Of a DNA stretch of 64,000 nucleotides, positions 3,969 through 56,098 are shown in pieces. The translations under genes and the position numbers were made by a program. The stretch is from Spirochaetales bacterium (GTDB taxonomy: Bacteria; Spirochaetota; Spirochaetia; Sphaerochaetales; Sphaerochaetaceae), in NCBI GenBank assembly GCA_017614375.1, contig JAGABZ010000013.1:76414-140413 (forward strand), given 5' to 3'. Positions within the stretch are counted from its first letter, which is position 1. Every line of letters starts with the position of its first letter. Below the pieces are notes generated by a model. It was not told where the DNA came from, ran no database searches, and worked only from the letters and a program-made list of their open reading frames with translations.

Positions 3969-4110
3969 GTATCCGAAAACATCATCTCAAGGGCATTTTT
4001 CGGATACAAGCGTATCCGAAAACCTCGTTTCAAGCGCTTTTCTCGGATACAAGCGTATCCGAAAACCTCGTTTCGGCGCCTTTTTTCGGATACATGAGGT
4101 ATCCGAAGCA
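3969..4110 (+). repeat. tandem 43-bp hairpin repeats, word GTATCCGAAAA
   Basis: GTATCCGA begins at 3969, 4012, 4055 and 4099, a 43-44 bp period. Each of the first three units closes with TTCGGATAC or CTCGGATAC, so each unit is an inverted repeat with about 18 bases between the arms. The fourth unit is truncated. The array fills the gap between the convergent cysE and hydA genes. Confidence 0.8.
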
Positions 4111-4123
4111 TTTGCGATTTTCA

Positions 4124-4154
4124 CAAAAAAAGAGGCGCCCCGAAGGACGCCTCC
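4124..4154 (-). terminator. intrinsic terminator of the hydrogenase operon
   Basis: On the minus strand GAGGCGTCC, loop TTCG, GGGCGCCTC, then seven T. The nine-base-pair stem with a stable tetraloop and U-tract lies 20 bases after the hydA stop codon. Confidence 0.85.
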
Positions 4155-4172
4155 AAAGTCGCGGGACGCGGT

Positions 4173-5918
4173 TTACTGGTAAATCGGTCTCTGGTGATAC
4201 TTGGTGTGCAGAAGCTCCTCCGACTTCTCGGAAAGCGGCGCACCGAGGAACTCATCGTAAATCTTCTTGATCGACGGATTCTGGTGCGAGCAGCGGACCG
4301 CGCTTCTCTTGTCGTCGGCATACAGGCCGGCGGTTCTCGCGGCACGGTTCGGGGTGCTGCTGGCGTAGGGCTGTCCGCCTCCGGAGATGCATCCGCCCTT
4401 GCAGGCCATGACCTCGATGAAGTGGTATGGAGGTTCCTTGCCCTCGGCCCTGGCCTTGCGGACTTCTTCCAGAACGGTCTTTACGTTGCCCAGACCGCTG
4501 ACAATCGCGACCTTCAGGTCCAGATCGCCGGCCTTGATGGTGGCGGTCTTGATTCCTTCCGGTCCGCGGACGGCGTCGACATCGACACCCTCGAGCTCCT
4601 TGCCCGTCACAGCCCAGTAAGCGGTTCTGATTGCCGCTTCCATGACTCCGCCGGTGTTTCCGAAGATGGTTCCGGCACCGGAGTACTCTCCGATCGGATC
4701 ATCGACGTCGGACTCGGGCAGGACGGAAAGGTCGATGCCCTTGGCCTTGAACATCCTGGCCAGTTCGCGGGTGGTGATGGAAATGTCGGTGTCCTTGTAT
4801 CCGGAGGCGGACATGTTCTCGTCACGGCCGATTTCGAACTTCTTGGCGGTACAGGGCATGACGGCCACGTTGACGATGGTCGCCGGGTCGATTCCGGCCT
4901 TCTGTGCCCAGTAGGTCTTGGTAATCGGGCCCTGCATCTGCATCGGGGACTTGGCCGAGGAGAAGTTGGGAATCATATCCGGGTAGTACTTCTCCATGTA
5001 GTCGGTCCAGGCCGGGCAGCAGCTGGTCAGCTGGGGCAGGACTCCGCCGTGGGTCAGGCGGTGGACAAGCTCGCTTCCCTCTTCCATGATGGTCAGGTCG
5101 GCGGCGAAGTTGGTGTCGAACACCTTGTCGAAGCCGAGCTGTCTGAGACCGGTGTACAGCTTGCCGACGGTCAGGGCTCCGTCGCCCATTCCGAATTCCT
5201 CGCCGATACCTACGCGGACCGACGGAGCGATGTTGACGACGACCGTCTTGGCCGGGTCGTTAATCGCCTGGCGGACCAGTTCGGTGTCGTCGCGCTCATA
5301 GATGGCTCCGACCGGGCAGTGGGCAGCGCACTGGCCGCACTTGACACAGGGAGAATCGTTGAGCGGGAGGTTACAGGCAGGCTGCATCTGGGAACCGTCG
5401 CCGCGGCCGACATACTCGAGGGCGTAGACACCCTGCAGGTCCTGACAGACCTCGACGCAGCGGCCGCACTTGATGCACTTGGTCGGCTCGAGGATGATCG
5501 ACGGGGAGGACTCATCCTTTGGCAGGCGCTTTACGCGGGCATCGAACGGGATTTCCCTGATTCCGAAGTCGGCAGCCAGCTTCTGCAGTTCGCAGTTCTG
5601 GTTGCGGATGCAGGTCAGGCAGTCCGCCGGATGGGTGGAGAGAATCAACTCGATGACGGTCTTGCGGGCCTGGAACAGCTCCGGGTCATCGGTGATGTAG
5701 CTGGCGCCCTCCTGTACCGGAGAAGCACAGGCTCTCTGGATCTTCGGCGAGCCTTCCATCTTCACGATGCACAGACCGCATGAGGCGGTCGGCTTGATGT
5801 CCTCGTGGTAGCAAAGGGTCGGAATCTTCACTCCGGCCGCTGTCGCCGCTGCGAGAACAGAGGATCCGGCTTCGACTTCAACCGGGATACCATTTATCTT
5901 TACATGAACAACACTCAT
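4173..5918 (-). CDS. hydA: [FeFe]-hydrogenase catalytic subunit
   Basis: Reduces protons to H2 (or the reverse) in a cytosolic NAD-linked, probably electron-bifurcating, HydABC complex. An N-terminal plant-type 2Fe-2S domain is followed by the His-containing 4Fe-4S motif (THPADCLTCIRNQNCEL) and two 4Fe-4S clusters (CIKCGRCVEVC and CVKCGQCAAHC). The H-cluster domain has all three signatures: TSCCPAW (L1), MPCTAKKFE (L2) and EVMACKGGCISGGGQP (L3). The C-terminal small-subunit region is fused. Its 581 aa is the usual length of this group. It is the last gene of the operon, 13 bases after hydB, with a strong terminator behind it. Confidence 0.96.
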   Translation of the reverse strand: MSVVHVKINGIPVEVEAGSSVLAAATAAGVKIPTLCYHEDIKPTASCGLCIVKMEGSPKIQRACASPVQEGASYITDDPELFQARKTVIELILSTHPADCLTCIRNQNCELQKLAADFGIREIPFDARVKRLPKDESSPSIILEPTKCIKCGRCVEVCQDLQGVYALEYVGRGDGSQMQPACNLPLNDSPCVKCGQCAAHCPVGAIYERDDTELVRQAINDPAKTVVVNIAPSVRVGIGEEFGMGDGALTVGKLYTGLRQLGFDKVFDTNFAADLTIMEEGSELVHRLTHGGVLPQLTSCCPAWTDYMEKYYPDMIPNFSSAKSPMQMQGPITKTYWAQKAGIDPATIVNVAVMPCTAKKFEIGRDENMSASGYKDTDISITTRELARMFKAKGIDLSVLPESDVDDPIGEYSGAGTIFGNTGGVMEAAIRTAYWAVTGKELEGVDVDAVRGPEGIKTATIKAGDLDLKVAIVSGLGNVKTVLEEVRKARAEGKEPPYHFIEVMACKGGCISGGGQPYASSTPNRAARTAGLYADDKRSAVRCSHQNPSIKKIYDEFLGAPLSEKSEELLHTKYHQRPIYQ

Positions 5919-5931
5919 TGCTTACTCCTCT

Positions 5932-7719
5932 TTACTGGATCGAGATGGCGCCGAACTTACAGGTCTGGATACAGGTTCCGCACTTGATACACTTGGTCTG
6001 GTCGATCGTGTGCGGCTGCTTCAGACTGCCGGAGATGCAGCTGACCGGGCACTTGCGTGCGCAGGCCGTGCAGCCCTTGCACTTCGCCGGGTCGATGACG
6101 TAGCTGATGAGCTTCTTGCACTTTCCGGCCGGGCACTTCTTGTCCACGATGTGGGCAATGTACTCGTCCCTGAAGAACTTCATCGTCGACATGACGGGGT
6201 TCGGGCTGGTCTGGCCGAGGGCGCAGAGCGAAGCCTTTCTCATCGTGTTGGCGATTTCGGTCAGGGTGTCCAGATCCTTCATCGTTCCCTTTCCGTCGGT
6301 GATCTTCTCGAGGATTCCGAGCATCGTCTTGCCGCCGATACGGCAGGGCATGCACTTTCCGCAGGACTCGTCGACGGTGAAGTTCAGGTAGAACTTGGCC
6401 ACGTCGACCATGCAGTCGTCCTCGTCCATGACGATCATTCCGCCGGATCCCATCATCGAGCCGATCTTCACCAGCGAACCGAAGTCGATCGGGGTGTCGA
6501 GGTTCTCGGAAGTGATGACGCCGCCGGAAGGTCCGCCGGTCTGCACAGCCTTGAACTTCTTGCCGTGGGCGATTCCGCCGCCGATGTCGTAGACGATCTC
6601 ACGCAGCGTGGTGCCCATCGGGACTTCGACCAGTCCGGAGTTGCAGATCTTTCCGGTAAGGGCAAAGACCTTTGTTCCGTGGGAATCCTCGTCGCCGATC
6701 TTGGAGAACCACTCGCCGCCCTTGTGGATGATGACGGGGATGTTGGCCCAGGTCTCGACGTTGTTGATTACGGTCGGCTTTTCCCAGAGGCCCTTGACGG
6801 CCGGGAACGGCGGACGCGGAACGGGCATTCCCCTGTGTCCCATGATGGACTGCAGCAGAGCCGTTTCCTCACCGCAGACGAAAGCGCCGGCGCCGAGGCG
6901 GATCTCGATGTCGAAGTCGAATCCGCTTCCGAGGATGTCCTTACCGAGCAGGCCGAGTTCCTTGGACTGGGCCATTGCGACTTCCAGTCTGTGGATGGCC
7001 AGCGGGTACTCCGCGCGGATGTAGATGAATCCCTGATGGGCTCCGATCGCCTTTCCGCAGATAGTCATGGCCTCGAGTACCGAGTGCGGGTCACCTTCGA
7101 GGGTGGAGCGGTCCATGTAGGCACCGGGGTCGCCTTCGTCGGCGTTGCAGACGACGTACTTGATGTCGGACTCGACGTTCTTGGAGAAGTTCCACTTCAT
7201 CCAGGTCGGGAATCCGGCGCCGCCGCGTCCGCGGAGACCTGCGATCTTGAGCTGTTCGATGATGTCCTCCGGGGTCATCTCAAAGAGCGCCTTCTCCAGG
7301 GCGGCGTAACCGTCTCTGGCGATGTACTCGTTGATGTTCTCCGGATCGATGAATCCGCAGTTCCTCAGAACGATTCTGAACTGCTTCTGGTAGAACTTGA
7401 TGTCCTCGACCTGGGCGTGCTTGGCGGCCTTTTCCTTATCGTAGAGAAGGCGCTTGACCTCACGGCCCTTGATGATGTGCTCGGCAATCAGTTCGTGAGC
7501 GTCCTCCGGGGCGACCTTCACGTAGAAGGAGTCCTCCGGGAGAATCTTTACGATCGGTCCCTGTTCGCAGAAACCGAAGCAGCCTGTCTGGACGATCTGG
7601 ACCTCATCGGCCACGCCCTGCTTCTCGGCCTCCAGCTTGAGGTTGTCGAAGATCTGCTGACTGCGGCTGGATTCACAGGCGGTACCGCCGCAAACCAGGA
7701 TATAGTTTCTAAAAGCCAT
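5932..7719 (-). CDS. hydB: NAD-linked hydrogenase subunit, NuoF-like
   Basis: Diaphorase-type subunit that carries FMN and the NAD(H) site and passes electrons to hydA. Domains in order: N-terminal thioredoxin-like 2Fe-2S (CGGTACESS, then QTGCFGFCEQGP), the Nuo51 FMN/NADH domain (LRGRGGAGFPTWMKW), an SLBB region, the NuoF 4Fe-4S motif (ESCGKCMPCRIG) and a C-terminal two-cluster ferredoxin (CKGCTACARKC and CIKCGTCIQTC). The 595 aa length matches HydB of fermentative anaerobes. It is the fourth gene in the operon hydC, ATPase, 2Fe-2S protein, hydB, hydA. Confidence 0.95.
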   Translation of the reverse strand: MAFRNYILVCGGTACESSRSQQIFDNLKLEAEKQGVADEVQIVQTGCFGFCEQGPIVKILPEDSFYVKVAPEDAHELIAEHIIKGREVKRLLYDKEKAAKHAQVEDIKFYQKQFRIVLRNCGFIDPENINEYIARDGYAALEKALFEMTPEDIIEQLKIAGLRGRGGAGFPTWMKWNFSKNVESDIKYVVCNADEGDPGAYMDRSTLEGDPHSVLEAMTICGKAIGAHQGFIYIRAEYPLAIHRLEVAMAQSKELGLLGKDILGSGFDFDIEIRLGAGAFVCGEETALLQSIMGHRGMPVPRPPFPAVKGLWEKPTVINNVETWANIPVIIHKGGEWFSKIGDEDSHGTKVFALTGKICNSGLVEVPMGTTLREIVYDIGGGIAHGKKFKAVQTGGPSGGVITSENLDTPIDFGSLVKIGSMMGSGGMIVMDEDDCMVDVAKFYLNFTVDESCGKCMPCRIGGKTMLGILEKITDGKGTMKDLDTLTEIANTMRKASLCALGQTSPNPVMSTMKFFRDEYIAHIVDKKCPAGKCKKLISYVIDPAKCKGCTACARKCPVSCISGSLKQPHTIDQTKCIKCGTCIQTCKFGAISIQ

Positions 7720-7735
7720 TGCTCTCCCCCGTTCC

Positions 7736-8128
7736 TCAAGCCTTCATGATGTCCACGGAAGGCCTGTCGTAGATGTGGTCGGTGACAAGCTTCTTTCCGA
7801 TGACGTGCGATTTGACAATCTCGCGGGCAACGGCGGCGTCGACCTTTCCATAGATCGTGGCGGGCATGCCGGGAACGATGACCTCGACGGTCGGCTCGAC
7901 GTAGCACAGACCCATGCATCCGGTCTGGGTTACGGCGACGTTCTCAATCTTTTCCTCGTCCAGGACCTTCAGGAACTCATCGAGGACCGTCTTGGCTCCG
8001 GCGGCGATACCGCAGGTGCCCATGCCGACGATTATCTGGCTGTCCTTGCCGGCCAAGTCGCGCTTCTGGAGCGCATCCTGTTTCTGTTCTCTCAGTTTCC
8101 TGAGCTCTTCCAAAGAAATCTTTGCCAT
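7736..8128 (-). CDS. thioredoxin-like 2Fe-2S ferredoxin of the hydrogenase operon
   Basis: A 130-aa electron carrier with the four-Cys pattern of thioredoxin-fold ferredoxins: GMGTCGIAAGAK holds only one Cys, and the later pair is in QTGCMGLCYVEP. Similar stand-alone proteins sit between the NuoE-like and NuoF-like genes in clostridial and Thermotoga-type hydrogenase clusters. The start at 8128 follows GGAGAACAGAA; an upstream in-frame extension lacks a ribosome site. The first conserved motif shows only one of the two Cys usually expected, so cluster binding there may use a different ligand or be lost. Confidence 0.8.
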   Translation of the reverse strand: MAKISLEELRKLREQKQDALQKRDLAGKDSQIIVGMGTCGIAAGAKTVLDEFLKVLDEEKIENVAVTQTGCMGLCYVEPTVEVIVPGMPATIYGKVDAAVAREIVKSHVIGKKLVTDHIYDRPSVDIMKA

Positions 8129-8148
8129 TTCTGTTCTCCTGTATGTTT

Positions 8149-8727
8149 TTACCGGGCCAAACGAAGCTCGTGTTCCGTCCTGCAACCGTCCAGTCCCTCC
8201 TCAAGCCCCTCCAGATACTGGCGGGCCAGATTCAGCGAACCGGCGGTCTTCAGTTCAAGCAGGGCGTCGATCAGGTCGGATCTGCTGACCTGGTAGGCGT
8301 CGCTTCCGGCAGGGGTGTCCAGGCTCCTGTCAACCGCAACATCGCATCCCTCCGGAGCTCCGGAAAAGATGGCAAGCAGCGTCGAGGGGAGGTTTCCCAG
8401 GGGCGGTACGTCGATGTCGGTCAGATCGAACTCAAACGACACCTTTGTTCCGCGGCCCTCCTCGGACTCCAGACTGAAAGCGCAGCTCGTCTGTTTGACG
8501 AACGGCAACCCCAGTCCGACCTTTCTCCTGCTGTGCTTGATTCCGTCCGTGTAGAACGGGTCGGTAACGCGCTTCTGCACCTCCGCGCTCATTCCCTTTC
8601 CGTTGTCCTGAATCACAAAACCGATCCGGTCCTGTGTCTCGGCGATGGTGATCCTGACCATTGTCGAGCCCGCCTCGAGCGAGTTCTGGGCGATGTCCAG
8701 GAGGAAGTCGCAGAGGAATACATGCAT
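8149..8727 (-). CDS. histidine-kinase-like ATPase in the hydrogenase operon (192 aa)
   Basis: A GHKL/HATPase_c domain without any phosphoacceptor His domain or sensor. The N-box is DFLLDIAQNSLEAGS, the G1 box DNGKGM and the G2 box VGLGLPF. The domain ends near residue 105 and is followed by about 85 residues without a recognised motif. Small ATPases of this kind are found in NAD-dependent [FeFe]-hydrogenase operons, where their role is not settled; assembly or regulation has been considered. It starts 12 bases after hydC and lies 20 bases before the 2Fe-2S gene, so it is clearly within the operon. Confidence 0.85.
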   Translation of the reverse strand: MHVFLCDFLLDIAQNSLEAGSTMVRITIAETQDRIGFVIQDNGKGMSAEVQKRVTDPFYTDGIKHSRRKVGLGLPFVKQTSCAFSLESEEGRGTKVSFEFDLTDIDVPPLGNLPSTLLAIFSGAPEGCDVAVDRSLDTPAGSDAYQVSRSDLIDALLELKTAGSLNLARQYLEGLEEGLDGCRTEHELRLAR

Positions 8728-8739
8728 CCCGGCCGGCCT

Positions 8740-9213
8740 TTACGCGAATTTAGCGAGGATTCCCGGTACGGCTTCCTTGGTCAGTTTGCCAAACACCTCG
8801 CCGGAAATCGTCATGACGGGAGCAAGTCCGCAGCAGCCGACGCACCTGACAGCCTCGAGCGAGAACTTGCCGTCCTCGGTGACCTGTCCGACGTCGATGC
8901 CGAGCTCCTTGTTGATGGCCTCGACGACCTTGTCACCGCCCTTCAGATAGCACGCCGTTCCCAGGCAGACAGCGATGTTGTGTTCGCCCGGTTTGGTGAG
9001 CTTGAAGAAGTGGTAGAAGGTGACGACGCCCCAGACCTTGGCAAGGGGGATGTCCAGCAGCTGGGAAACTTTTTCGGCAGCCTCCCTGGAGATGTAACCC
9101 ACCTCCCCCTGCACCTTGTGGAGAACCATGATCAGGTTCCCCGGCTTCTCTTTCCACTCGTTGATGAAAGCCATCAGCGAATCGGAAAACTTCAATTCTT
9201 CTCTTTCAGACAT
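8740..9213 (-). CDS. hydC: hydrogenase subunit, NuoE-like 2Fe-2S protein
   Basis: First gene of the operon; 157 aa from the ATG at 9213, which follows GGAGG by four bases. A longer frame upstream would overlap the promoter and is rejected. The NuoE fold binds a 2Fe-2S cluster through Cys in CLGTACYLKGG and in RCVGCCGLAPV. The N-terminal helical part (VLHKVQGEVGYISREA) is typical. It partners HydB in NADH oxidation or reduction. Confidence 0.94.
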   Translation of the reverse strand: MSEREELKFSDSLMAFINEWKEKPGNLIMVLHKVQGEVGYISREAAEKVSQLLDIPLAKVWGVVTFYHFFKLTKPGEHNIAVCLGTACYLKGGDKVVEAINKELGIDVGQVTEDGKFSLEAVRCVGCCGLAPVMTISGEVFGKLTKEAVPGILAKFA

Positions 9214-9250
9214 GGAACCTCCAAAATTCCTGTGAAATCTCACTTTTTTA

Positions 9251-9279
9251 ATCGTATCACAAAAGACTTTACAACTCAA
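9251..9279 (-). promoter_or_regulatory. promoter of the hydrogenase operon
   Basis: On the minus strand TTGAGT (9279-9274) and TACGAT (9256-9251) are separated by 17 bp. The -35 box overlaps the last codons of the endonuclease-like gene. A short dyad, GTGAGATTTCAC, lies just downstream in the leader. Confidence 0.5.
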
Positions 9280-10318: not shown

Positions 10319-10323
10319 GGTTA

Positions 10324-10370
10324 ACCTCCGCCCCTATATCCGCGCCGGAAGGCGTTTCGCTGAGAAAAAG
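10324..10370 (-). repeat. leader repeat, copy B
   Basis: On the minus strand: TTTTTCTCAGCGAAACGCC, then a short CGCC/GGCG hairpin, GCGGATATAG and GGGGCGGAGG. As in copy A the element ends in the ribosome-binding site of a lipoprotein gene, here with a TTG start. Confidence 0.65.
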
Positions 10371-10378
10371 GCGGAAAA

Positions 10379-12589: not shown

Positions 12590-12602
12590 CTGTCAAACGG
12601 AA

Positions 12603-13163: not shown

Positions 13164-13267
13164 AACAGTCCTCCCGGCCCTGAGGGGCCTCTGTATGCAA
13201 ATCCTGCGTGGTAAATAATAACAACCTTTGGACTCTTTGATAAGGCCTTGATAAGGCCCAAGGCACC

Positions 13268-13296
13268 TTGCTGTCCTTAAGCGGTGCCTCTATAAT
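13268..13296 (+). promoter_or_regulatory. promoter of era, leaderless
   Basis: TTGCTG (13268-13273), 17 bp, TATAAT (13291-13296). The ATG starts seven bases after the end of the -10 box and no Shine-Dalgarno site exists, so transcription probably starts at the ATG. Two copies of GATAAGGCC lie just upstream. Confidence 0.65.
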
Positions 13297-13302
13297 CGCC
13301 GT

Positions 13303-14196: not shown

Positions 14197-14203
14197 AAAC
14201 AGC

Positions 14204-15769: not shown

Positions 15770-15776
15770 GCCGACG

Positions 15777-19830: not shown

Positions 19831-19914
19831 AAATCGTCGTTTTTGTTTGATTTCAGATAAAAAAGACGATTTGTCGACCCTAACCCCGCCTTTTTAATAA
19901 AAAACGACGATTTT
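19831..19914. repeat. two 42-bp hairpin-repeat units, word AAATCGTCGTTTTT
   Basis: Unit one spans 19831-19872, from AAATCGTCGTTTTT to AAAAAAGACGATTT, an inverted repeat. Unit two spans 19873-19914 and ends in AAAAAACGACGATTTT, its left arm decayed. It lies between the divergent C69 peptidase and P-loop genes. The rest of this 280-bp gap shows no gene. Confidence 0.6.
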
Positions 19915-20567: not shown

Positions 20568-22421
20568 TCAGCAGCAAAGCATGTTCTTGAGGTATTCTCT
20601 CAAAGGGGCGTCTACGCAGTAGATGTAACACCCCTTGAGGCCTCTGGAAAGAAGGACTTTGTATGTTCTGCGGATGAGTTGATCTGCTTCTTCGTCACTT
20701 GTTGTTCTTCTTCCGATACCGCTGGATTTGTCGTCCTTTGAAACAGCATTCCTGTCGGTCCGGACATGACCGTCCTTGTAGTACAGATCCCTGCCGATAA
20801 TCACCCCGACATAGTCGAATTCCATCCCCTGACAGGTGTGAATACAGCCGACTTCCTCAAAAGAAGCAGGATTCACTGCCCAGTGGTCATCCTTCTCGAG
20901 ATTCCACTTTGCCCTGAAGCCGCCGGGAAGCTCAATATCCCAATCTCCACGTTTGTTTTTCACATTCCAGTCAAAGCAATAGCCTGAAATCATTCTGGCT
21001 TTGTTGTTAATTCCGTTGAGTTCCCTCAATTCATCCCGCATGGCTACAGGGTCGTCAAACACCTTGACCTTCAGTTTGTTGAACTCAAAGGAAGTGTTGG
21101 CAGTGCGTTTAAGCTCCAGAAGATTGTTGAGAAACGAAATGTAGCCGTCACTACCGTCGCATCTGAACTGAGACACCAATTCATAAGGCCTGTGCAGAAC
21201 CGCGCCTTCCCTTCTGGCGTACTCTTCTATGGTCTTTACCGAGTATTTGTCGAATACCGTAATCCGCTGGTCTTCATCAACAAAGAAGACCGATATCCTG
21301 GCCGCCTTGATTGCGTCTTCGAGCATGTCGTTTCCGGGATACATGTAGGGTTTCTTCTGCATCCTGTGGGCTTCATCATAGATTCCGACGTCAAGTCCGT
21401 TGACAGGGGTTCCCGGAAGGGCAAACGGTGACTGAATTGCCTTCTGGAGGTTGACCATCTTACGTGCATTGCCCTTGGAAAGGAGAACCGAATAACACTT
21501 TCTGGGAGCCATGTTCTTTGTGATGTATGAAGCATTCAACTTAAGATCTGAAATACATTTGGCAAGAACATTGATTGCAACGACGGATTTCCCGGTACCC
21601 GGGCCGCCGGTAATGATGATGACATGCTTCCGGCCGTCCTTTTCGGAGTCCTTGATTGCCTTCATGATTTTGTCATAGGCGACAATCTGTTCATCAATCA
21701 GATGAAACTCCTCATTTCCGCAGAGCATTGAATCCAACGCGTCCTGAAGCGACTTCGTCGGCTTGAGTCGGCCTTCCTCAATCCTGTACAGCAGCGAATC
21801 GTCCTCTGCCTTGAGATGGATATACTGCTTGATGAAATTTCGGATTTTCAGGACATCTTTCTGAAGGAATGCCGGAGCTTCCGCTGTCCATTCACTGTAG
21901 AGATTGTCCTCTATCACCGGACGGTACACCTCTCCGAGGTTGTGAAGATAGGTGCAGGGAATCAGCGTGCGGGAATTGACATGAATATCATCGCAATAGT
22001 CCAGAATCAGGCATTTGTATGAGTAGGCCTGATACGAGGGATGCGCAACCGGCTCATGCGACCTGAGATCGGACATAACCAGATGGCTGCAGTTCTCATC
22101 GACTTTCTCCACCTTGGCCCACTGTTTGAGTTCGACTATGACAACGTGATCCTCTTCCCCGCTATTCCCCATAATCATGAAATCAACTCGTTTGCTCGTC
22201 TGGGGAATGTTGTATTCAATTGCAACCTGACAATCCGGGGAGAAGTAATCGTCCTTCAGCGCATCCTTCATAAACCGAAGGGAGTTATTCCAAGAATTGA
22301 CCTCGCTGGGAGACCCACCGCTCAGACCCTTTTCCCTGAGTTTGCCCAAAAGAATATCCGGCATCTCATTCAGTTCGACATTCTCCCTGAACCTGCCGAG
22401 GCTGTCGTTATAGATGATCAA
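20568..22421 (-). CDS. PD-(D/E)XK nuclease-DUF2075 helicase fusion (617 aa)
   Basis: The N-terminal domain (about 1-190) has a PD-(D/E)XK nuclease pattern: E69 in VAIEY, D80 in RVDFMI and E97-L-K99 in VVIVELKQW. Residues about 240-615 form a superfamily 1-like DUF2075 helicase (Schlafen group-3 related): Walker A GGPGTGKS at 272-279, Walker B IYDEAHR near 347-353, FFVDEDQR, THCQG-like motif V (HTCQGMEFDYVGV) and the C-terminal SRGLKGCYIY. Such proteins are often found near defence genes; that role is inference here. The start is TTG at 22421 after AAGGG. The gene is visibly AT-richer than its neighbours, suggesting transfer. A TATAAT stands 20 bases upstream. Confidence 0.85.
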   Translation of the reverse strand: MIIYNDSLGRFRENVELNEMPDILLGKLREKGLSGGSPSEVNSWNNSLRFMKDALKDDYFSPDCQVAIEYNIPQTSKRVDFMIMGNSGEEDHVVIVELKQWAKVEKVDENCSHLVMSDLRSHEPVAHPSYQAYSYKCLILDYCDDIHVNSRTLIPCTYLHNLGEVYRPVIEDNLYSEWTAEAPAFLQKDVLKIRNFIKQYIHLKAEDDSLLYRIEEGRLKPTKSLQDALDSMLCGNEEFHLIDEQIVAYDKIMKAIKDSEKDGRKHVIIITGGPGTGKSVVAINVLAKCISDLKLNASYITKNMAPRKCYSVLLSKGNARKMVNLQKAIQSPFALPGTPVNGLDVGIYDEAHRMQKKPYMYPGNDMLEDAIKAARISVFFVDEDQRITVFDKYSVKTIEEYARREGAVLHRPYELVSQFRCDGSDGYISFLNNLLELKRTANTSFEFNKLKVKVFDDPVAMRDELRELNGINNKARMISGYCFDWNVKNKRGDWDIELPGGFRAKWNLEKDDHWAVNPASFEEVGCIHTCQGMEFDYVGVIIGRDLYYKDGHVRTDRNAVSKDDKSSGIGRRTTSDEEADQLIRRTYKVLLSRGLKGCYIYCVDAPLREYLKNMLCC

Positions 22422-22479: not shown

Positions 22480-22675
22480 TCGGCTCCGCCGCCCGGTATC
22501 TGCGTCAGAAGGCTTTTCGCCGGGAGAATTCAGAAGAATGTGCAGTTTTTTTCAAAACCTGCAAATTGATGCTATTTGGATAGCATCATTTTTCGGAAAT
22601 GAGGGAAAAGATGTCAAAAAAATAGCATCGATTTTGAGTTTTGCGATAAATGATGCTATAAACCCAGCCCGGAGC
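22480..22675 (-). repeat. repeat block D: degraded leader plus GATGCTAT array
   Basis: Related to the block at 40226-40406 but on the opposite strand. GATGCTAT or its complement lies at 22568, 22580, 22622 and 22652; successive same-orientation copies are 42 bp apart (22580 to 22622). The conserved AAAAAAACTGCACATTCT follows on the minus strand, then a decayed leader repeat in which the terminal GGCGGAG is not next to a start codon. Confidence 0.75.
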
Positions 22676-40204: not shown

Positions 40205-40225
40205 TTCTGTTTTCATACGTGCCCA

Positions 40226-40406
40226 ATAGCATCTTTTTGCGCCAAATGCAGAATTGATGCTATTTTTGTGTCATCTTTTTTCGCATTTCGAAGAAAAGAT
40301 GCTATCGAAATAGCATCAATTTGCAAGTTTTGAAAAAAACTGCACATTCTCCTGTTTTTCTTCTCAGCGAAACGCCTCTTGGCATGGATAGTAGCGGCGG
40401 AGGAAA
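40226..40406 (+). repeat. repeat block C: GATGCTAT array plus leader repeat
   Basis: ATAGCATC at 40226 and 40310, GATGCTAT at 40256 and 40298; the two GATGCTAT copies are 42 bp apart and 40298-40317 is a tight hairpin. The block continues with AAAAAAACTGCACATTCT and then leader copy C (40356-40406: TTCTCAGCGAAACGCC through GGCGGAGG), whose last bases are the ribosome site of the gene at 40411. It starts 21 bases after the galM stop codon. Confidence 0.8.
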
Positions 40407-40410: not shown

Positions 40411-41184
40411 ATGTACGAGGAAACTATCAAGGCACTTCAGCGAAGGCTGGCGAAGGTTTCTGAGGTGCTTTCGAGACCGGTTCCGGATACTGAAGGCAGG
40501 CTCCTCTGTCGGTTGAGCCGTAATCCTGTGATGTATTACAGGAAGACAGCAGCCGGAATCGAATATCTGGGCCGGGGAAAGGAAAACGAGATCCGGCTGC
40601 TGGCCCAGAAGCGGTACGAGCAACGGCTGCACACGCTGGCGCTAAAGGAGAAGCGGGCCCTGGAAACGGCAATAGCGCTTTTGGGCAAGGCCAGACCGTT
40701 TGAGTCGGTCGGGGCCGAAATGTCCGAAGGAATCATGCGCTTTGTTATCCCGCACGGCGGTACGGATGAGGATTTCGTGAAAAGCTGGCTGGGTGTCAGG
40801 TACAACCGCAAGCCTGTCGGCAGAGAGGCTGTTGTCACGGCGAGGGGTGAAAGCGTGCGGTCAAAGAGCGAGGCGATCATTGCCGACAGGCTGCTGAGGG
40901 CCGGGGTTCCGTACCGCTATGAGTTTCCGGTGAATCTGGGAAAGGACGGGCTGTACCACCCGGACTTCATGGTGCTGAACAGGCGGACCCGGCAGGAATT
41001 CTTCTGGGAGCATTTCGGTATGCTGGACAACCCCGGATATGCCTATACGAACATCAGAAAACTGCGGATCTACGCCGCTCACGGCCTGTATCCAGGGGTG
41101 AACCTCATCCTGACCGCCGAGGCCGAGGGCCAGGTGCTGGACACACAGGAAGTCGAGGCGCTGATCAGACAGTACCTGCTGTAG
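40411..41184 (+). CDS. predicted PD-(D/E)XK-like nuclease (257 aa)
   Basis: The first 100 residues are charged and helical. The C-terminal half has the arrangement of a restriction-type nuclease: SKSEAIIADRL with E154, then YEFPV with E171, YHPDFMVLN with D185 and FFWEHFGM with E200. This layout (SE, PDF, WEH) recurs in many Firmicutes proteins of unknown role, some linked to mobile DNA. It is not a named restriction family. The ATG at 40411 follows GGAGG by seven bases, and the ribosome site is part of leader repeat C. Confidence 0.75.
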   Translation: MYEETIKALQRRLAKVSEVLSRPVPDTEGRLLCRLSRNPVMYYRKTAAGIEYLGRGKENEIRLLAQKRYEQRLHTLALKEKRALETAIALLGKARPFESVGAEMSEGIMRFVIPHGGTDEDFVKSWLGVRYNRKPVGREAVVTARGESVRSKSEAIIADRLLRAGVPYRYEFPVNLGKDGLYHPDFMVLNRRTRQEFFWEHFGMLDNPGYAYTNIRKLRIYAAHGLYPGVNLILTAEAEGQVLDTQEVEALIRQYLL

Positions 41185-45631: not shown

Positions 45632-45645
45632 ATTTAACGTGAAAA
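45632..45645 (+). promoter_or_regulatory. LacI-type operator before the importer
   Basis: ATTTAACGTGAAAA lies five bases before TTGACT (45651-45656), the best -35 candidate for the binding-protein gene. The -10 box is not clear (TACACC at 45672 has a 15-bp spacing). Confidence 0.5.
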
Positions 45646-45738
45646 TTTGCTTGACTTTTCACTTCGGAGAATACACCATGAAAATGCACTTGTCAAATTC
45701 GAAGTGTAAGAAAGTGTCAGAAAAGGAGAGAATGATAT

Positions 45739-47184: not shown

Positions 47185-47196
47185 GCCGGGGGAAGT

Positions 47197-49205: not shown

Positions 49206-49208
49206 CAG

Positions 49209-50135: not shown

Positions 50136-50151
50136 TTACAGAGGTTTGAGA

Positions 50152-51108
50152 ATGAAGAAGAGTTTCACCCGTATCGCTGCCGCCGCCCTGGCGGTGCTGT
50201 TGCTGGCAATCATCGCACTGACCGTTTCCTGCTCAAAGGATTCCAAAGGCGCCGCGGAAACGGCCAAGGTCGACTACGGCCCGAGCATTCCGTTCGAAAA
50301 GACGGCCAAAGTGACCTGGGCGGGCTGCAGATGCTCCACATACGGAATCAAGCCCTTCCCCTCCGCCGAGGAGTGGGATACATACGTGACCCGCATGGCC
50401 TCCGAGTACGAGGGCAGCATTCCGACCTTTGTCTGGATCGTCGGCTATGTCTCTGGAAACGGCGATGTGCAGAGCTGCACGATCAACTTCCCCCTCGAAG
50501 AAAAGATCCAGGGCGTCGTGACATTCCCCTACGACGAGAACGAGGACTTCCTGACCATGTGCGACGAAAAGGGCTACTCGGTCTGGCTGCAGGTCGAACC
50601 GGGCGACTGCGACGTGGTTTCCCTGGCAAAGGCGACGATGGAGCGCTACAAGAACCACAAGTCGGTCAAGGGATTCGGCGTCGATGTGGAGTGGCACAAG
50701 ACCTACGACACCGAGGGCTACGGAACAAAGATCACCGACGAACTGGCCCGGCAGCTTGACGAGGCAATCAAGTCGGTCGACCCGCGCTTTACCCTTTTCC
50801 TCAAGCACTGGGACATCAACTGGATGCCGGACGAGTACCGCTCCGATATAATCTTCGTAAACGACAGCCAGCAGTTCAAATCGCTCGAGGCCATGAAGAA
50901 ACTGTTCGACGGCTGGGCCAGATGGTTCTACCCCAACGCCGTTCTGTTCCAGATTGGCTACGAGGCCGACTACAACCTCTGGCGCAAGCTGGACAATCCG
51001 AAGAAGGACCTCGGTGATTACCTGGCGGAGGACATCCCCGACGACCAGCATGTGGGAATCATCTGGGTCGACTTCACCCTCAAGCAGGCGATGAAGAAAG
51101 GAAAGTAA
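50152..51108 (+). CDS. glycan-locus lipoprotein, family member 1 (318 aa)
   Basis: Start at ATG 50152, seven bases after GAGG; a TTG two codons earlier is less likely. Lipobox LTVSC gives a lipid anchor. The mature part shares its full length with the products at 51112 and 57394. Shared blocks in order: IVGYVS, a C-x-FPL stretch, GYSVWLQVEPG, VKGFGVDVEW, FLKHWD, FVNDSQ, FQIGYEADYN and GIIWVDFT. Strands ending in acidic residues suggest a glycosidase-like barrel, with the D-V-E of GVDVEW as candidate catalytic residues. I know no named family for it. Confidence 0.75.
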   Translation: MKKSFTRIAAAALAVLLLAIIALTVSCSKDSKGAAETAKVDYGPSIPFEKTAKVTWAGCRCSTYGIKPFPSAEEWDTYVTRMASEYEGSIPTFVWIVGYVSGNGDVQSCTINFPLEEKIQGVVTFPYDENEDFLTMCDEKGYSVWLQVEPGDCDVVSLAKATMERYKNHKSVKGFGVDVEWHKTYDTEGYGTKITDELARQLDEAIKSVDPRFTLFLKHWDINWMPDEYRSDIIFVNDSQQFKSLEAMKKLFDGWARWFYPNAVLFQIGYEADYNLWRKLDNPKKDLGDYLAEDIPDDQHVGIIWVDFTLKQAMKKGK

Positions 51109-51111
51109 GAC

Positions 51112-52134
51112 ATGAAAAAGATGGTTTTGTTTCTTATACTCTGCGTTTTTCTGCTGGTATCCTGCACCGGCGGCATCGAGCTTCCATGGAACAGACCGGA
51201 CAACGGTGATGACAACGGCGGAGGCGGGGGCACCCAGGAACCGGGTGGAACCGGCGCCGTGAAGTGGGCGGGAATCAGGTTTTCCTCATATGGAATGAGG
51301 TCCGCCTACGGAAAGGACAACTTCCCCGACAAGACCAAGACCTCCAACCTGATTTCCAAGATGCGGGGCTACTATGACGACAGCAAGGGAACCTGCATCC
51401 TCATAGTCGGTACGGTCAGCGAGTCCAACTGGACCTGCAGTCTGGATTTCCCGCTGAGCAAGGAAATCGACCTGGTCTACGGCAGCAAGAATGACAGATA
51501 TGAGGATTATCTCACCGCTTTCGACAATGCCGGCTACTCCGTCTGGCTCCAGGTCGAACCGGGCAACGCCGACCTTGTGGCCCTGGCAAAGGAAGTGATG
51601 ACCCACTACAAGAACCACACCTGCGTCAAGGGATTCGGAATCGACGTCGAGTGGTACAGGCCCGCCGGAACCGACGGCTACGGCACCAAGCTCACCGCGA
51701 CCGAGGCCAGGAAAGTCCTGACCGAAATCCGGAAAATCAACTCCGGCTACACCCTGTTCATAAAGCACTGGGACAGGAGATGGCTGACCGACGGAAAGTC
51801 CGCCGACGAGGGCATCATCTACGTCAACGACAGCCAGAACTATCTGGGCCTGGACGAAGACGACGAAATCACCACCGCGCTGATCAACTCCTTCTCCACC
51901 GAGGAACTCAACGAGGCCGCCGAGGACATGATCGACGACTTCTCCAGATGGGCCAAGGCTTACTACCCCAGCCCCGTCATGTTCCAGATCGGATACGAAA
52001 AGGACACGCCCTTCTGGAAGCGGCTGTACACCAACCCCGCCAAGGGCCTGGGCGAGGCAATCGCCGCCGGCATTCAGACCAAGAATGACATCGGCATCAT
52101 CTGGGTGGACTTCACCGTCAACCAGGTTCTGTAG
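51112..52134 (+). CDS. glycan-locus lipoprotein, family member 2 (340 aa)
   Basis: Signal peptide with lipobox LLVSC, then a Gly/Asp-rich linker of about 25 residues (NGDDNGGGGGTQEPGG), then the same domain as its neighbour, with FGIDVEWYR, FIKHWDRRWL, YVNDSQN and FQIGYEKD. Compared with member 1 it has a longer N-terminal linker and an insert of about 20 residues after VNDSQN. The gene lies three bases after the previous one, so the pair is a tandem duplication in the same operon. Outward-facing sugar binding or hydrolysis is inferred. Confidence 0.75.
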   Translation: MKKMVLFLILCVFLLVSCTGGIELPWNRPDNGDDNGGGGGTQEPGGTGAVKWAGIRFSSYGMRSAYGKDNFPDKTKTSNLISKMRGYYDDSKGTCILIVGTVSESNWTCSLDFPLSKEIDLVYGSKNDRYEDYLTAFDNAGYSVWLQVEPGNADLVALAKEVMTHYKNHTCVKGFGIDVEWYRPAGTDGYGTKLTATEARKVLTEIRKINSGYTLFIKHWDRRWLTDGKSADEGIIYVNDSQNYLGLDEDDEITTALINSFSTEELNEAAEDMIDDFSRWAKAYYPSPVMFQIGYEKDTPFWKRLYTNPAKGLGEAIAAGIQTKNDIGIIWVDFTVNQVL

Positions 52135-52149
52135 GAGCGCTGCCGGTCT

Positions 52150-53154
52150 ATGGTAACGATAAAGGACGTAGCCCAACTCGCGGGAGTCTCCCATACCACC
52201 GTTTCGCTGGCGATACGCGGCTCAAAGAGCATCACGCCCGAAACGAGGGAAAAGGTCCTGAAGGCGGCGCGGCAGCTTAACTATCACCCCAACCATCTGG
52301 CCCGTTCCCTGGTGAACGGAAAGACGGGCGTAATCGGCATCGTCGCCAACTTCTTTTCCAGCACCTTTGAAATGGAGATTCTCAAGGGCATCGAGCAGAG
52401 CGTCCACTCGACCGAGACCGACTTTTCAATCAACCTGTTCTCGACCCTGGGCAAGAACGACGAGGTCCTGACCGACATCTGTCTGGGCCGCCACGCCGAC
52501 GGGGTCATCCTGCTTTCAATCAGCCCCTCTGCCGAAATCGTCAAGCTTTTCAACGACAACAACTGTCCGATGATAGTGATTGACGAACAGGCCGAGGGAG
52601 CCATTGAAATCGTCATGGACAACTTCCACGGGGCCTACATGGCGACCGAGCACCTGATCAACTCCGGCCGGAAGAATCTTGCCCTGGTCCTCGGCCGGGA
52701 CAACCAGCGCGAGCTCGGCCTGTCTCAGAGCGAGAGGAAAAACGGCTTTCTGCAGGCCCTGAAGGACCACGGCATGAGCTTTGATGACCGGAACACCTTC
52801 TACATCGAGGACTATTACTTTGAGGAAGGCCAGGTCGTCTTCAAGCGCATGCAGCGCTACCGCGGGAACATCGACGGGATATTCTGCGCAGCCGGCGATA
52901 TGGTGGCCTCAGGCATGGTTCTTGAGGCGAAAACCGAGCACGTCAGGATTCCGGAGGACATCGCAATCATCGGGTACGATGACATAATCTCCTCCTCGAT
53001 GATCGACCCGCCGCTGACAAGTATCCGCCAGCCGCTCTTCCAGATCGGAAAGAACGGCTACGCCAGGATGGTGAGGCTCCTCGAGGGAACCGAGGAGTAC
53101 AAGCCGAACAAATTCGTATATGAACCGCAGTTGATAGTCAGAGGTTCTGTCTGA
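52150..53154 (+). CDS. LacI-family transcriptional regulator
   Basis: A 334-aa DNA-binding repressor-type protein. The helix-turn-helix (IKDVAQLAGVSHTTVSLAI, residues 4-22) is followed by the hinge helix NHLARSLVNGKTG, which inserts at a central CG in operators of this family. The rest is a periplasmic-binding-protein-like sugar sensor ending in IIGYDDIISSSM and TSIRQPLFQIG. Genes at both sides are glycan-use genes, and the CG-centred word TTTCACGTTAAA stands at three of the locus promoters, so it is the likely regulator. AGGAG is about 11 bases upstream. Confidence 0.94.
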   Translation: MVTIKDVAQLAGVSHTTVSLAIRGSKSITPETREKVLKAARQLNYHPNHLARSLVNGKTGVIGIVANFFSSTFEMEILKGIEQSVHSTETDFSINLFSTLGKNDEVLTDICLGRHADGVILLSISPSAEIVKLFNDNNCPMIVIDEQAEGAIEIVMDNFHGAYMATEHLINSGRKNLALVLGRDNQRELGLSQSERKNGFLQALKDHGMSFDDRNTFYIEDYYFEEGQVVFKRMQRYRGNIDGIFCAAGDMVASGMVLEAKTEHVRIPEDIAIIGYDDIISSSMIDPPLTSIRQPLFQIGKNGYARMVRLLEGTEEYKPNKFVYEPQLIVRGSV

Positions 53155-53185
53155 CAATCTGCGTTTCGCATAAAAGGAGTAGAAA

Positions 53186-54277
53186 ATGAAGAGATTTCTG
53201 ACCTGCATTCTGGTGGCAATGATCGCCTTTTCCGCCTTTGCCGCAGTCAACGTCACAATCGACACAATCACCATGTTCTCCGGCGCCGGAGATCCCCAGG
53301 GACTGATCCAGAAGGGTTTCGTCATCGGTGGCGCCGACGAGGCAATCATGGCCGACATCAACTTCAGCCTCAGCAGCAGCTACGGCTCGGCTCTGGTCAA
53401 CATCCGCGCTGAAATGCCCTCCAGCAAGTACAACGGAGCCAGCGTCTCCATCCACGGATGGGAAGTGAACGCCAAACTCAACGACTGGGCAACCCTTTCT
53501 CTCGGAAACACCGCCGTCGAGCTGTTCAACGAGAGCATCAACTGGGAACCCGTCTTCGGAGCCGGTCTGTTCGAGTCGATGCGCAACAGGCTGTATTTCG
53601 ATCTCGACGTCGGTTCGGACATCGAGGTCATCGTCGGAATCTCCCCGAAGAACTACGCGACCAACCCGCTTAAGACCCTGCAGCTCGCCGCCATCTACGA
53701 TATTCCGATGCTGATGAAGGTCGCCGCCGAGTTCTGGATGGTTCCGGACAACCTCTGCCAGACGATGTACGGCGACGGAGAAGTCAAGGCCATCAGCGTC
53801 CAGCTGGACTATGTCGAAATCGAGAACACCAACCTGCTGCTCGGATACACCGCCTTCCTCGCTGAGGGTGCCCTGGTCCAGAACAGAATCGACCTGCTGG
53901 CCTCCTATACTCCCGAAGGATTCGAGTTCGAGGTTTACGACGCCCTGCTTCTGCGCATGTACGCCGGAACCCACCCGGGTAACAGATTCGCCGCAAAGGC
54001 CACCTATTACGCCACCGAAAAGCTCGCCCCGTCGATCAGCTTCAACTGGTTCAAGAACTACGGCTACAACGGCGAGTCCGGTTTCGCATGGTCCGACTGC
54101 CAGCTCTGCGACGCCATCGCCAACGGGTCGCTGTTCGTAATCGAGCCGCGTCTGGGCTTCACCGTTTCGGACAACACCTCCGGTTACCTCGGAGCACAGT
54201 TCAAGTTCGATGCGACCCCGGAAGCCGCCAGCAAGTCTTTCTGGTCCCTCCAGCTCGGCCTGACCGCTACATTCTGA
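53186..54277 (+). CDS. predicted outer-membrane porin-like protein (363 aa)
   Basis: Sec signal peptide ending at FAAV. The mature protein is built of alternating strands with Asn/Gly turns and ends in LQLGLTATF, with the terminal Phe of outer-membrane barrels. About 14-16 strands can be sketched, as in porins. Its position between the LacI gene and the phosphatase in the glycan locus suggests a channel for the oligosaccharide. AGGAG six bases upstream supports the start. No recognised family name. Confidence 0.7.
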   Translation: MKRFLTCILVAMIAFSAFAAVNVTIDTITMFSGAGDPQGLIQKGFVIGGADEAIMADINFSLSSSYGSALVNIRAEMPSSKYNGASVSIHGWEVNAKLNDWATLSLGNTAVELFNESINWEPVFGAGLFESMRNRLYFDLDVGSDIEVIVGISPKNYATNPLKTLQLAAIYDIPMLMKVAAEFWMVPDNLCQTMYGDGEVKAISVQLDYVEIENTNLLLGYTAFLAEGALVQNRIDLLASYTPEGFEFEVYDALLLRMYAGTHPGNRFAAKATYYATEKLAPSISFNWFKNYGYNGESGFAWSDCQLCDAIANGSLFVIEPRLGFTVSDNTSGYLGAQFKFDATPEAASKSFWSLQLGLTATF

Positions 54278-54297
54278 GTTCCTCCAGGGGCTGAAAG

Positions 54298-55890
54298 ATG
54301 AAAAGATTCTACCGAAGCCTTTGCGTCTTCCTGATTGCCTTGGCGGTCGTCTTCGCCTGCTGCTCGTGTACCGAGAAGCAGGTGGAGATCGAGAGGATAA
54401 CGCTGAACGTCACGACCAAGACCCTGGTCTCCGGCGAGTCGTATCAGCTTGTGGCCAAGGCCTATCCGGAAAACGCCTCACAGGAATTCACCTGGACGTC
54501 GTCCAACACCAGCTACGTCACCGTCTCTGAAACCGGCCTGATCAAGGGCAAGAACACCGGCAACGACACCTCGTCGGGCATCAAGGTCACCGCGACCAGC
54601 AAGTCCGACCCGACCAAGAAAAAGGCCTGCACAATCTATGTCGAAGTCGCTCCGCCTGCCACCTTCACCGTTTCCAAGACTGGTATGCTCACCGCCGGTC
54701 CCGGACAGGACGCCTCCACCAGCGCCGTAATTTCCTGGCACGCCGCCACCCCCGATTCGGTCCTTGAGTACACGACCTACGAGGACACCGGATACGCGGC
54801 CAAAACCACCCAGGAGTGCCCCGGAACCATTTCCACGGCCGACTTTGCAGACACGGCCACCCACTACCGTTGCAGAGTAGTGCTCACCGGCCTGACTCCC
54901 GACACCTCCTATCGGTACCGCATCGTCAACGGTACCAGCACGACACAGGAGGGCTACTTCAGGACCGCCGGAAGCGACACGACCTTTCAGTTCATGTGGC
55001 TGAGCGACCTGCACACCCCGAAGGGCAGTTCTTCCTACGTCTCCAGAGTCTCCGAGCTGATCAACTTCGCCAACGCAAAGGACGGGGTCGACCTCGACTT
55101 CTGCCTGTTCACCGGCGACATGGTCAACAAGGGCCAGATATACAAGCACTGGAACTACTGGTCTGACAGCGGGCTGATGAGGAACATGACCTACGCGTTC
55201 CTCAGCGGAAACCACGACTACTATCCGTACGGCACGAAGGACCGCAACAGCAACGCCTATTTCAAGGATGTGGCGGCCTATCCGTACAACAACACCCAGG
55301 CCTCCACTGCCGTTCTGGACAGCAACTACTGGTTCATCTGGAACAGGGTCATGTTCGTCTGCGTCGATAACTTCACCAGCGAGGGCGCTACCACCAGGAC
55401 CCAGAGCGGAAGCAGTGTTTCCGCCCAGGTAGCCTGGGTCCGGGCCGTGGTCAACGCCAATGCGGGCAACTTCGACTATCTGGTCTACGCCCAGCATCTG
55501 CCGTTCTTCATCAACGACGAGCCGTGCAGCTATGGCCAGTACTCCGACTGGCGCGCCCTCTTCGACGAGCTGAAGGTTGACTTCGCCCTGTCCTCGGACG
55601 AGCACGCCTACACCCGCACAAAGCCGCTGAAGAACAACGCCGCCGTAGCCCTGACCGACGGAAAGGTCACCGACGGCACTGTTTACGTCACCAGCTTCGA
55701 GACCGAGGGCTCCAAGGTCGACACACCGACCAACAAAGCCTCGGCCTCTGCCAAATACGCTGCCTACTACGGCGGCGGCGGTGTTGCCGGTGTCTACTTC
55801 ACCGTCACGCCCGAGGAGATGACTCTGCACCTCATCGGAGCCAACGGCACTGAGTATGACACTGTCACAGTCCTGAAGAAGACCCGCTAG
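54298..55890 (+). CDS. lipoprotein purple-acid-phosphatase-like phosphoesterase (530 aa)
   Basis: Lipobox region VFACCSC. A bacterial Ig-like (BIG2) domain spans about 30-115, then the fibronectin-like N-terminal domain of purple acid phosphatases (about 120-220), then a calcineurin-like metallophosphoesterase domain: LSDLHTP, TGDMVNKG, SGNHDYYP and VYAQHLPF. The last motif, normally GHxHxY, is SDEHAYTR, where Asp replaces the first His. That His is a metal ligand in most members, so the second metal site may be altered. It is predicted to be anchored in the envelope and to remove phosphate from an extracellular ester. Ends in a terminator. Confidence 0.88.
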   Translation: MKRFYRSLCVFLIALAVVFACCSCTEKQVEIERITLNVTTKTLVSGESYQLVAKAYPENASQEFTWTSSNTSYVTVSETGLIKGKNTGNDTSSGIKVTATSKSDPTKKKACTIYVEVAPPATFTVSKTGMLTAGPGQDASTSAVISWHAATPDSVLEYTTYEDTGYAAKTTQECPGTISTADFADTATHYRCRVVLTGLTPDTSYRYRIVNGTSTTQEGYFRTAGSDTTFQFMWLSDLHTPKGSSSYVSRVSELINFANAKDGVDLDFCLFTGDMVNKGQIYKHWNYWSDSGLMRNMTYAFLSGNHDYYPYGTKDRNSNAYFKDVAAYPYNNTQASTAVLDSNYWFIWNRVMFVCVDNFTSEGATTRTQSGSSVSAQVAWVRAVVNANAGNFDYLVYAQHLPFFINDEPCSYGQYSDWRALFDELKVDFALSSDEHAYTRTKPLKNNAAVALTDGKVTDGTVYVTSFETEGSKVDTPTNKASASAKYAAYYGGGGVAGVYFTVTPEEMTLHLIGANGTEYDTVTVLKKTR

Positions 55891-55915
55891 GCTCCTTTTC
55901 AGGTCATCGATTTCC

Positions 55916-55957
55916 AAGGCCGCAACCTCTCTCGACGGGCTGCGGCCTTTCCTTTTA
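55916..55957 (+). terminator. intrinsic terminator after the phosphatase
   Basis: AAGGCCGCA (55916-55924) pairs with TGCGGCCTT (55941-55949), followed by a T-rich tail. It closes the importer-to-phosphatase transcription unit. Confidence 0.75.
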
Positions 55958-55974
55958 ACTGTGCTGTACCCGGG

Positions 55975-56098
55975 TTTTCAGAATAAAACCCGGGAATTTG
56001 CCCTTTTATTCTGAAATTTCCGAATAGAGGCTCCGATTTTTGCGGTTTATTCTGAAAATTCAGAATAAAGCCCCTGATTCCGGCCTTTTATTCTGAAA
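55975..56098. repeat. three 41-bp hairpin repeats, word TTCAGAATAAA
   Basis: Units at 55975-56016, 56017-56057 and 56058-56098. Each is TTTCAGAATAAA or a variant, about 16 GC-rich bases, then TTTATTCTGAAA. The middle unit has a decayed left arm (TTTCCGAATAGA). The array lies between convergent genes, beside two ordinary terminators, so it is not needed for termination. No gene is seen in this 300-bp gap. Confidence 0.8.

Follow-up and report, generated by a model that had tools for sequence, protein, structure and literature searches.

The stretch of DNA analysed here (the window, 64,000 nucleotides) comes from a Spirochaetales bacterium of the Sphaerochaetaceae (assembly GCA_017614375.1, contig JAGABZ010000013.1, positions 76,414 to 140,413), hereafter the host, and its intergenic regions carry arrays in which a short word alternates with its complement on a period of 41-43 bp. 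Each family of such arrays probably represents the DNA sites that are cognate to one paralog in a family of PD-(D/E)XK nuclease-like proteins, whose genes lie beside the arrays. Comparison of the sequences makes evident that genes and arrays are paired, that the words co-vary with the proteins, that the period is quantised in helical turns, that the words are conserved without being kept as base pairs (in four families), and that arrays of one word are dispersed through the genome.

A first-pass annotation of the window had listed five hairpin arrays, all of which are present, at or a few bases from the positions it gave, with no strand assigned to any of them. Host words group into about nine families (F1-F9, up to 13 loci each). 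The array at 3969..4107 (F1, word GTATCCGA) consists of three 43-bp units and a trailing half-site, and is a dispersed F1 copy flanked by cysE-like and [FeFe] hydrogenase genes. The hydrogenase shares 83%, 81% and 72% identity with records labelled Spirochaetales or Sphaerochaetaceae. A degenerate F8 array (AATCGTCGTTTT), with three good words only, lies at 19832..19912, while the F5 word (GATGCTAT) forms the array at 40225..40318, directly upstream of its nuclease-like gene, and a dispersed copy of it at 22567..22660. The last array, at 55977..56097 (F2, word TTC[A/C]GAAT), is also a dispersed copy and has three 41-bp units. Tandem Repeats Finder independently called the first array (3969-4107) with a period of 43 and the last (55977-56098) with a period of 41.

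The pairing of genes and arrays emerged when 539 proteins predicted from 620 kb of host sequence were clustered, the second largest group being five paralogs that adjoin arrays. Each of these five has a listed array within 350 bp, which is true of 58 of the 539 predicted genes (hypergeometric P 1.2e-5), and the array-to-gene distance is 2-99 bp in the five host genes measured. Of the eight paralogs in the host, no two adjoin arrays of the same word family, the families concerned being F1-F3 and F5-F9. Three of them have arrays of their own word on both sides, namely the F2 gene (host contig C16, 53674-54438, with the family match at C16:53677), the F3 gene (C1:153369) and the F9 gene (C5:48878). 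Arrays also stand alongside the F1 gene (C5:3417-4193, match at C5:3426) and the F7 gene (C6:1731-2576), and upstream of the F5 gene (C13:116824, the gene that starts at 40411 in the window); those next to the F6 gene (C5:97672; best lag 42, score 12) and the F8 gene (C13:301861-302760, C13:302200; best lag 41, score 12) are weak. Of 41 genomes searched, the host, G009, G010, G020 and G021 contain the family; the remaining 36, among them both congeners, gave no match.

The same pairing is found outside the host. A profile search of 392 Spirochaetota genomes gave matches in 37, in many of which the domain lies inside a long frame (about 700-1500 amino acids); standalone genes were seen in two families, that of the host and f18, the latter probably the Treponemataceae. 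From f18 every full-length standalone match was taken, leaving out partial, split, interrupted and long-frame matches, which gave 34 genes from ten genomes with flanks of up to 1 kb, some cut by contig ends. With a single detector, an array was found within 1 kb of 36 of the 59 standalone genes (5 of 8 in the host, 6 of 17 in G009, G010 and G020, 25 of 34 in f18). Control windows of 2 x 1 kb, taken from G010 and six f18 genomes, gave an array in 4 of 170 cases. Excluded before the count of 59 genes were L246 (from G021), the G020 fragments L254 and L258, and the second pieces of split hits L269 and L271. On nine viral contigs the domain lies in a longer open reading frame (747-1133 amino acids in the available sequence) and no array adjoins it; on one of them, L278, two detector matches with spacings of 81 and 150 lie about 2 kb and more beyond the frame. 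The domain also occurs in five plasmid records, four of them annotated as AAA ATPase or helicase, with partial cover only. Downstream of one standalone family gene (L252, G009:C46) we observed a CRISPR-like direct-repeat array with a 66-bp period and unlike spacers.

The 41-43 bp period of the host intergenic repeats is not due to chance. An exact-8-mer scan for alternating words found 13 arrays in the window's contig (400 kb), against 0, 0, 4, 1, 2, 0, 0 and 1 in eight shuffles, and 6 in a second host contig (220 kb), against 0, 0 and 0 in three. In a word-free test, direct 9-mer pairs in intergenic DNA occurred at distances of 41, 42 and 43 bp in 13, 12 and 11 loci, with harmonics at 82, 84 and 86 bp (5, 4 and 6 loci) and 0-2 loci at the other distances from 15 to 130 bp. 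Among 238 intergenic regions of the 620 kb, the best lag scored at least 10 in 52, of which 26 had it at 41-43 bp, while one shuffled intergenic set gave 12 scoring lags with 0 in that range. The remark of the first-pass annotation that the arrays occur between convergent, divergent and co-directional genes is borne out, since the 26 regions comprise 12 convergent, 3 divergent and 11 co-directional ones (out of 68, 67 and 402 available neighbour pairs, respectively).

Across spirochaetes, the repeat spacing amounts to whole helical turns, four in the host and four to nine in its relatives. The periods of 36 best arrays fall at 41-43 bp (8), 52-54 (3), 63-63.5 (2), 73-74 (3), 83-86 (14), 94-96 (5) and 137 (1), where one 83-bp value comes from the host F9 array, taken at twice its period, and the 137 value belongs to L293, whose GCCTGCA array has a period of 74. 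A quantum fitted freely between 7 and 16 bp was best at 10.6 bp (R 0.919, n=36), random periods giving at most 0.525 at the 99.9% level. The estimate is 10.50 bp for f18 alone (R 0.93, n=25), 10.65 bp for the stronger arrays (R 0.95, n=24) and 10.55 bp when one value is taken per genome and turn class (R 0.94, n=26). Inverted arrays of the form TTTTCCAA..TTGGAAAA were also seen in Lentisphaerae and Kiritimatiellaeota (L080:3139-3238 and L074:2565-2623), with periods of 31 and 42 that are likewise near whole helical turns, and with no family gene in the available stretch.

Word similarity follows protein similarity. Over 38 gene-word pairs the Mantel r was 0.33 for the N-terminal part of the protein and 0.28 for the C-terminal part, with 0 of 2000 permutations reaching either value; for five of the 38 pairs the word was chosen by hand (L247, L293, L242, L255 and L289), L270 was dropped as no protein was recovered, and the periods of the hand-added genes are placeholders, the period correlation of this test being left unused. 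Close proteins from different genomes have the same word, as with GCCTGCA in G303 and G315, TTATCCGTA in G312, G234 and G334, AAAATTACGG in G273 and G252, and GTCCGTA in G342 and G120. GTCCGTA, for instance, is found at spacings of 84 and 95 bp, and the occurrence of one word with different turn numbers indicates that word and spacing vary partly independently. A fast-evolving class of binding sites, one of the explanations offered by the first-pass annotation, is supported by words that track a paralogous nuclease-like family in this way.

The annotation had also described the word as private to each locus and changing from one locus to the next, which genome-wide searches contradict. Units of GTATCCGA occur at 9 loci and those of TTCAGAAT at 13, a TGGCCTC query found 11 places and a TTTCATCAA query 8 matches, and the word changes by family instead, eight of the nine families each having their own paralog. 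That words share no sequence is true between families and false within them, the arrays at 22568 and 40226 having one and the same word. Dispersal in the host reaches 13 loci for F2, 11 places for F9, 8 for F3 and 5 for F4, and none of these four words was found in the two congeners, where the family gene was likewise not found. Elements of the aligned families (F1, F2, F3, F6 and F9) are homologous; the usual length is three units in F1, F2, F4 and F9 and two in F3, the flanks are unrelated, and F1-F3 elements start and finish with the word. The loop ends of F4, F6 and F7 look alike (by eye only), which might hint at a common origin of all families, and a strict two-arm pattern search for the F8 word gave no match. 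Recent insertion sequence copies were considered as a source of the arrays and rejected: the repeats over 200 bp listed in the 620 kb are 66-90% identical, and the sole one above 85% identity is a local array duplication.

Several further repeats were noted in the course of these searches. Arrays of the F4 word (TGGTGGTTTT) stand at C13:49393, 49687, 158686, 184912 and 333689. The sampled congeners and other family members gave single irregular array matches and one good 52-bp array in G010, and distant relatives of the hydrogenase locus (1.26 Mb) gave 12 matches, mostly irregular. A different array, with ACTTCTG words and a period of about 65, lies downstream of hydA in a congener (G002, contig C63; L106 and L201). 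A separate dispersed oligomer of about 40 bp, similar to GGGGACGGTCAGGACTTGCCCGG, occurs in many host intergenic regions and in several cases adjoins arrays (examples at C5:56204-56244, C5:8443-8478 and C13:241644-241682). The 22567 array adjoins a minus-strand gene (window 20568-22421) for a Schlafen group 3 DNA/RNA helicase domain protein.

The partner gene in the window (40411..41184, plus strand) encodes 257 amino acids, with an N-terminal part and a C-terminal PD-(D/E)XK-like domain at about residues 142-257. Standalone members have about 253-299 residues, and the open frame of the host C6 gene has 422. Invariant in 23 aligned members are S151-K152, E154, P184-D185-F186 and E200-H201, so that the acidic residues of the PD-(D/E)XK motif (E154, D185, E200) are present throughout. 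Pfam has no family for four members tested (best match TnsA-like, E 0.067), nor NCBIfam for two (best REP_Tyr_transpos, E 0.018, far short of the cut-off at 14.9 of 80 bits), and a sequence search of the PDB gave no credible relative. The C-terminal part matches the end of the PDC-S68 models of PADLOC (5e-27), and weak profile matches were obtained to PD-DExK-named PADLOC models and endonuclease PHROG models. The predicted structure has a mean pLDDT of 67.8, with C-terminal blocks at 75-94 and an N-terminal half of low confidence, for which reason we do not claim a fold for that half; its long-helix matches (Rad50, prefoldin) were taken as common coiled-coil arrangements and discarded. Structural matches of the model are Bax1 (Z 8.5), VRR_NUC (7.4), TnsA (7.3) and Hjc (6.2), about the middling band, and Foldseek gave none at E <= 0.001 (best Bax1, 0.007). 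These middling scores favour a nuclease-like C-terminal domain and are no proof of its function.

The words are kept as sequence and not as stems. In F1-F4 (95 units), to which the count of compensation is confined, most word columns are conserved at 0.8-1.0, the few exceptions lying at 0.6-0.8. Between the arms of an inverted pair conservation is mostly 0.3-0.7, rising at the A/T-rich edges of this stretch. Arm changes within units were one-sided in 83 cases and matched in 1, where chance pairing would give about 5, and changes across neighbouring units were one-sided in 53 and matched in 1, where about 3 are expected by chance. Since arm changes are thus uncompensated, base pairing is not the constraint in these families. 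This bears on the proposal that the arrays are structured RNAs or transcription terminators, a weak reading and the least probable of those we weighed. The units can fold and a few F6 and F4 units have, by eye, matched arm changes that would fit pairing; one unit of the 3969 array even scores terminator-like. Against this, folding is equal on both strands (mean z -4.1 and -3.9), Rfam at its gathering threshold gave no match in the window, and, at the two loci scanned for terminators, a separate terminator-like hairpin sits between gene and array, outside the array: that of the hydrogenase gene at 4131..4154 (minus strand) and that of the minus-strand gene ending at 56198 at 56150..56177 (minus strand). 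No terminator-like hairpin was reported for the plus-strand genes at these two loci. The view of the first-pass annotation that termination alone does not explain the arrays is supported at these two loci, and its suggestion of a structured RNA family is not supported, given the uncompensated arms of four families, the equal folding of both strands and the absence of an Rfam match in the window.

Its further suggestion that the sites fall on one helix face agrees with the quantised period and with A/T tracts phased near 10.4 bp in the host. A recombination substrate, which it also listed, would fit a nuclease as partner and may be entertained as a possibility. In 36 host arrays listed by hand, 34 of them inside the 620 kb, runs of at least four A/T are phased near 10.3-10.5 bp with a power of 3.4-3.7, compared with about 1 in shuffled arrays and about 1 in 267 other intergenic pieces. 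A wedge calculation with assumed wedge and twist values predicts a bend of 89 degrees per 105 bp for the arrays, whereas shuffling lowers it to 42 and the mean of other intergenic DNA (428 windows) is 37. Since the 42-bp period by itself adds to this signal, controls that keep the period were run; they gave 54 and 57 degrees against 87 for the real arrays, the share of such controls reaching the real value ranging by family from 0.01 to 0.45 and from 0.07 to 0.49.

We propose that each protein recognises the 7-10 bp word of its family, and that these words stand in inverted pairs on a lattice that repeats every whole number of helical turns. On such a lattice every copy faces the same side, so that many protein molecules could line up along the DNA, for which curvature is predicted. 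Arrays bearing the word of a gene adjoin that gene or enclose it. Others, without the gene, are dispersed among the intergenic regions as though the nuclease had copied them in trans, in the manner proposed for RAYT transposases and REPs. We offer more tentatively, as a possibility that falls somewhat short of probable, that this is a selfish or domesticated repeat system without an HuH enzyme, in which a one-protein nuclease assembles as a lattice indexed by helical turns on arrays of its own word and multiplies them by site-directed cutting and repair, the paralogs having split by word and turn number into many pairs per cell that do not cross-react.

Several points weigh against this interpretation. 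Recognition of the words by the protein, its cutting of DNA and a dispersal driven by such cuts are all inferred from patterns in the sequence. No array was detected at 23 of the 59 standalone genes, which comprise three genes of the host whose arrays are weaker, L286 (missed because hits were wrongly merged at a largest detector step of 100, its arrays being seen at step 75), 8 with single weak matches, a kind also present in 18 of 120 control windows, and 11 without any signal. At the position where the nuclease motif usually has a lysine this family has none (E200-H201-F/L202); the invariant K152 might serve as the catalytic lysine. No target-site duplication of the kind that marks MITEs was recognised by eye at the element edges, and F4 has no family gene in the host genome assembly; it may be an orphan whose gene was lost or is missing from the assembly. 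The fit of the 36 periods to one quantum presumes reasonably independent arrays, within-unit phasing of tracts beyond the period effect is only moderately supported and lacking in F9, and the few matched arm changes in F6 and F4 have to be counted here as well.

Among the other explanations, the strongest is that the proteins are nuclease-derived regulators, for which the gene-side arrays are autoregulatory operators and the scattered ones regulatory or chromosome-organising sites, with no nuclease-driven movement. The short distance from array to gene in the five host genes measured would suit operators, word conservation at scattered loci looks like selection locus by locus, and helical phasing and curvature suit a bound lattice. 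We nevertheless consider it unlikely, as the scattered arrays favour convergent (12 of 68) over divergent, promoter-bearing intergenic regions (3 of 67), all 23 proteins keep the acidic residues E154, D185 and E200 unchanged, and F1, F2, F3 and F9 copies are whole elements with unrelated flanks. Less likely again is a poison-antidote arrangement, in which a toxic nuclease is titrated and kept silent by its arrays, so that cells losing the arrays suffer and the pair is maintained selfishly. The presence of several private pairs of gene and array in one genome, the resemblance of the domain to the C-terminus of the candidate defence proteins PDC-S68 and an integer-turn lattice able to seat an inactive oligomer would all fit, but the extra scattered arrays would not be needed, and in 23 of 59 genes no array was detected. 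We regard as very improbable that the arrays are topological elements similar to BIMEs, that is, curved modules between genes on which gyrase or a general nucleoid factor acts and in which the word is incidental: phased A/T tracts, a predicted bend of 89 against 37 degrees and the bias to convergent intergenic regions speak for it, yet within the units conservation is highest in the words, which differ by paralog, and a general factor leaves the pairing with genes unexplained.

Read as paired nucleases and sites, the system most closely recalls RAYT (TnpA-REP) genes and their repetitive extragenic palindromic (REP), BIME and REPIN repeats, in which a gene of DNA-processing type is likewise flanked by its own class of inverted repeats and gene-less copies lie between genes. 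As in REPtrons (PMC2817692, PMC8266576), there are several classes per genome, and repeats and enzyme co-vary. The RAYT enzyme is an HuH protein related to IS200/IS605, unrelated to the PD-(D/E)XK-like family described here. RAYT was also considered as the driver of the present arrays and rejected: a search of the host genome (98% complete) with PF01797 (Y1_Tnp) gave nothing at E <= 0.001, while the model matches 5 of 14 control genomes. TnpA-REP needs the REP structure (PMC8266576), and selection for complementary mutations in REPs has been suggested (PMC2817692). REP palindromes with complementary mutations thus differ from the present arrays, with their uncompensated arm changes in F1-F4, and a spacing quantised in helical turns is a feature of the present arrays for which we found no corresponding statement on REPs in the portions consulted (PMC2817692, PMC8266576). 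The array-nuclease system would therefore work like RAYT and REP without being a member of that group, its enzyme being unrelated and the counted repeats not being kept as hairpins.

Likenesses to other systems are partial. The structure of TnsA, the nuclease of the transposon Tn7, matches the domain at Z 7.3 with a root-mean-square deviation of 3.2 over 104 residues, which together with the weak TnsA-like match in Pfam amounts to a common nuclease-like arrangement only. Tn7 ends carry several transposase sites; unlike those, the present sites are inverted and on a strict lattice. PDC-S68 of PADLOC is clearly related in its C-terminal domain, but its models cover about 1200 positions, whereas here the domain is joined to a different, short N-terminal part in a standalone protein. 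BOX elements and NIMEs are modular, tandem, intergenic and dispersed, as the present arrays are; they are not known to have a private gene partner or a helical-turn lattice. We found no description of such a nuclease-and-repeat system in the open-licence literature of PubMed Central, which points to a previously undescribed system, new in the sense of not being found in those papers.

If the proposed relation is true, these spirochaetes hold natural orthogonal protein-DNA pairs of one architecture, in which word and turn number vary separately and whose recognition code would be readable from genomes alone. It would give nuclease-like genes that Pfam and NCBIfam leave unnamed a role, and would supply a partner other than HuH enzymes for the spread and persistence of small dispersed bacterial repeats. 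The turn-quantised spacing makes a strong physical prediction, namely that a cooperative complex would assemble on one face of the DNA.

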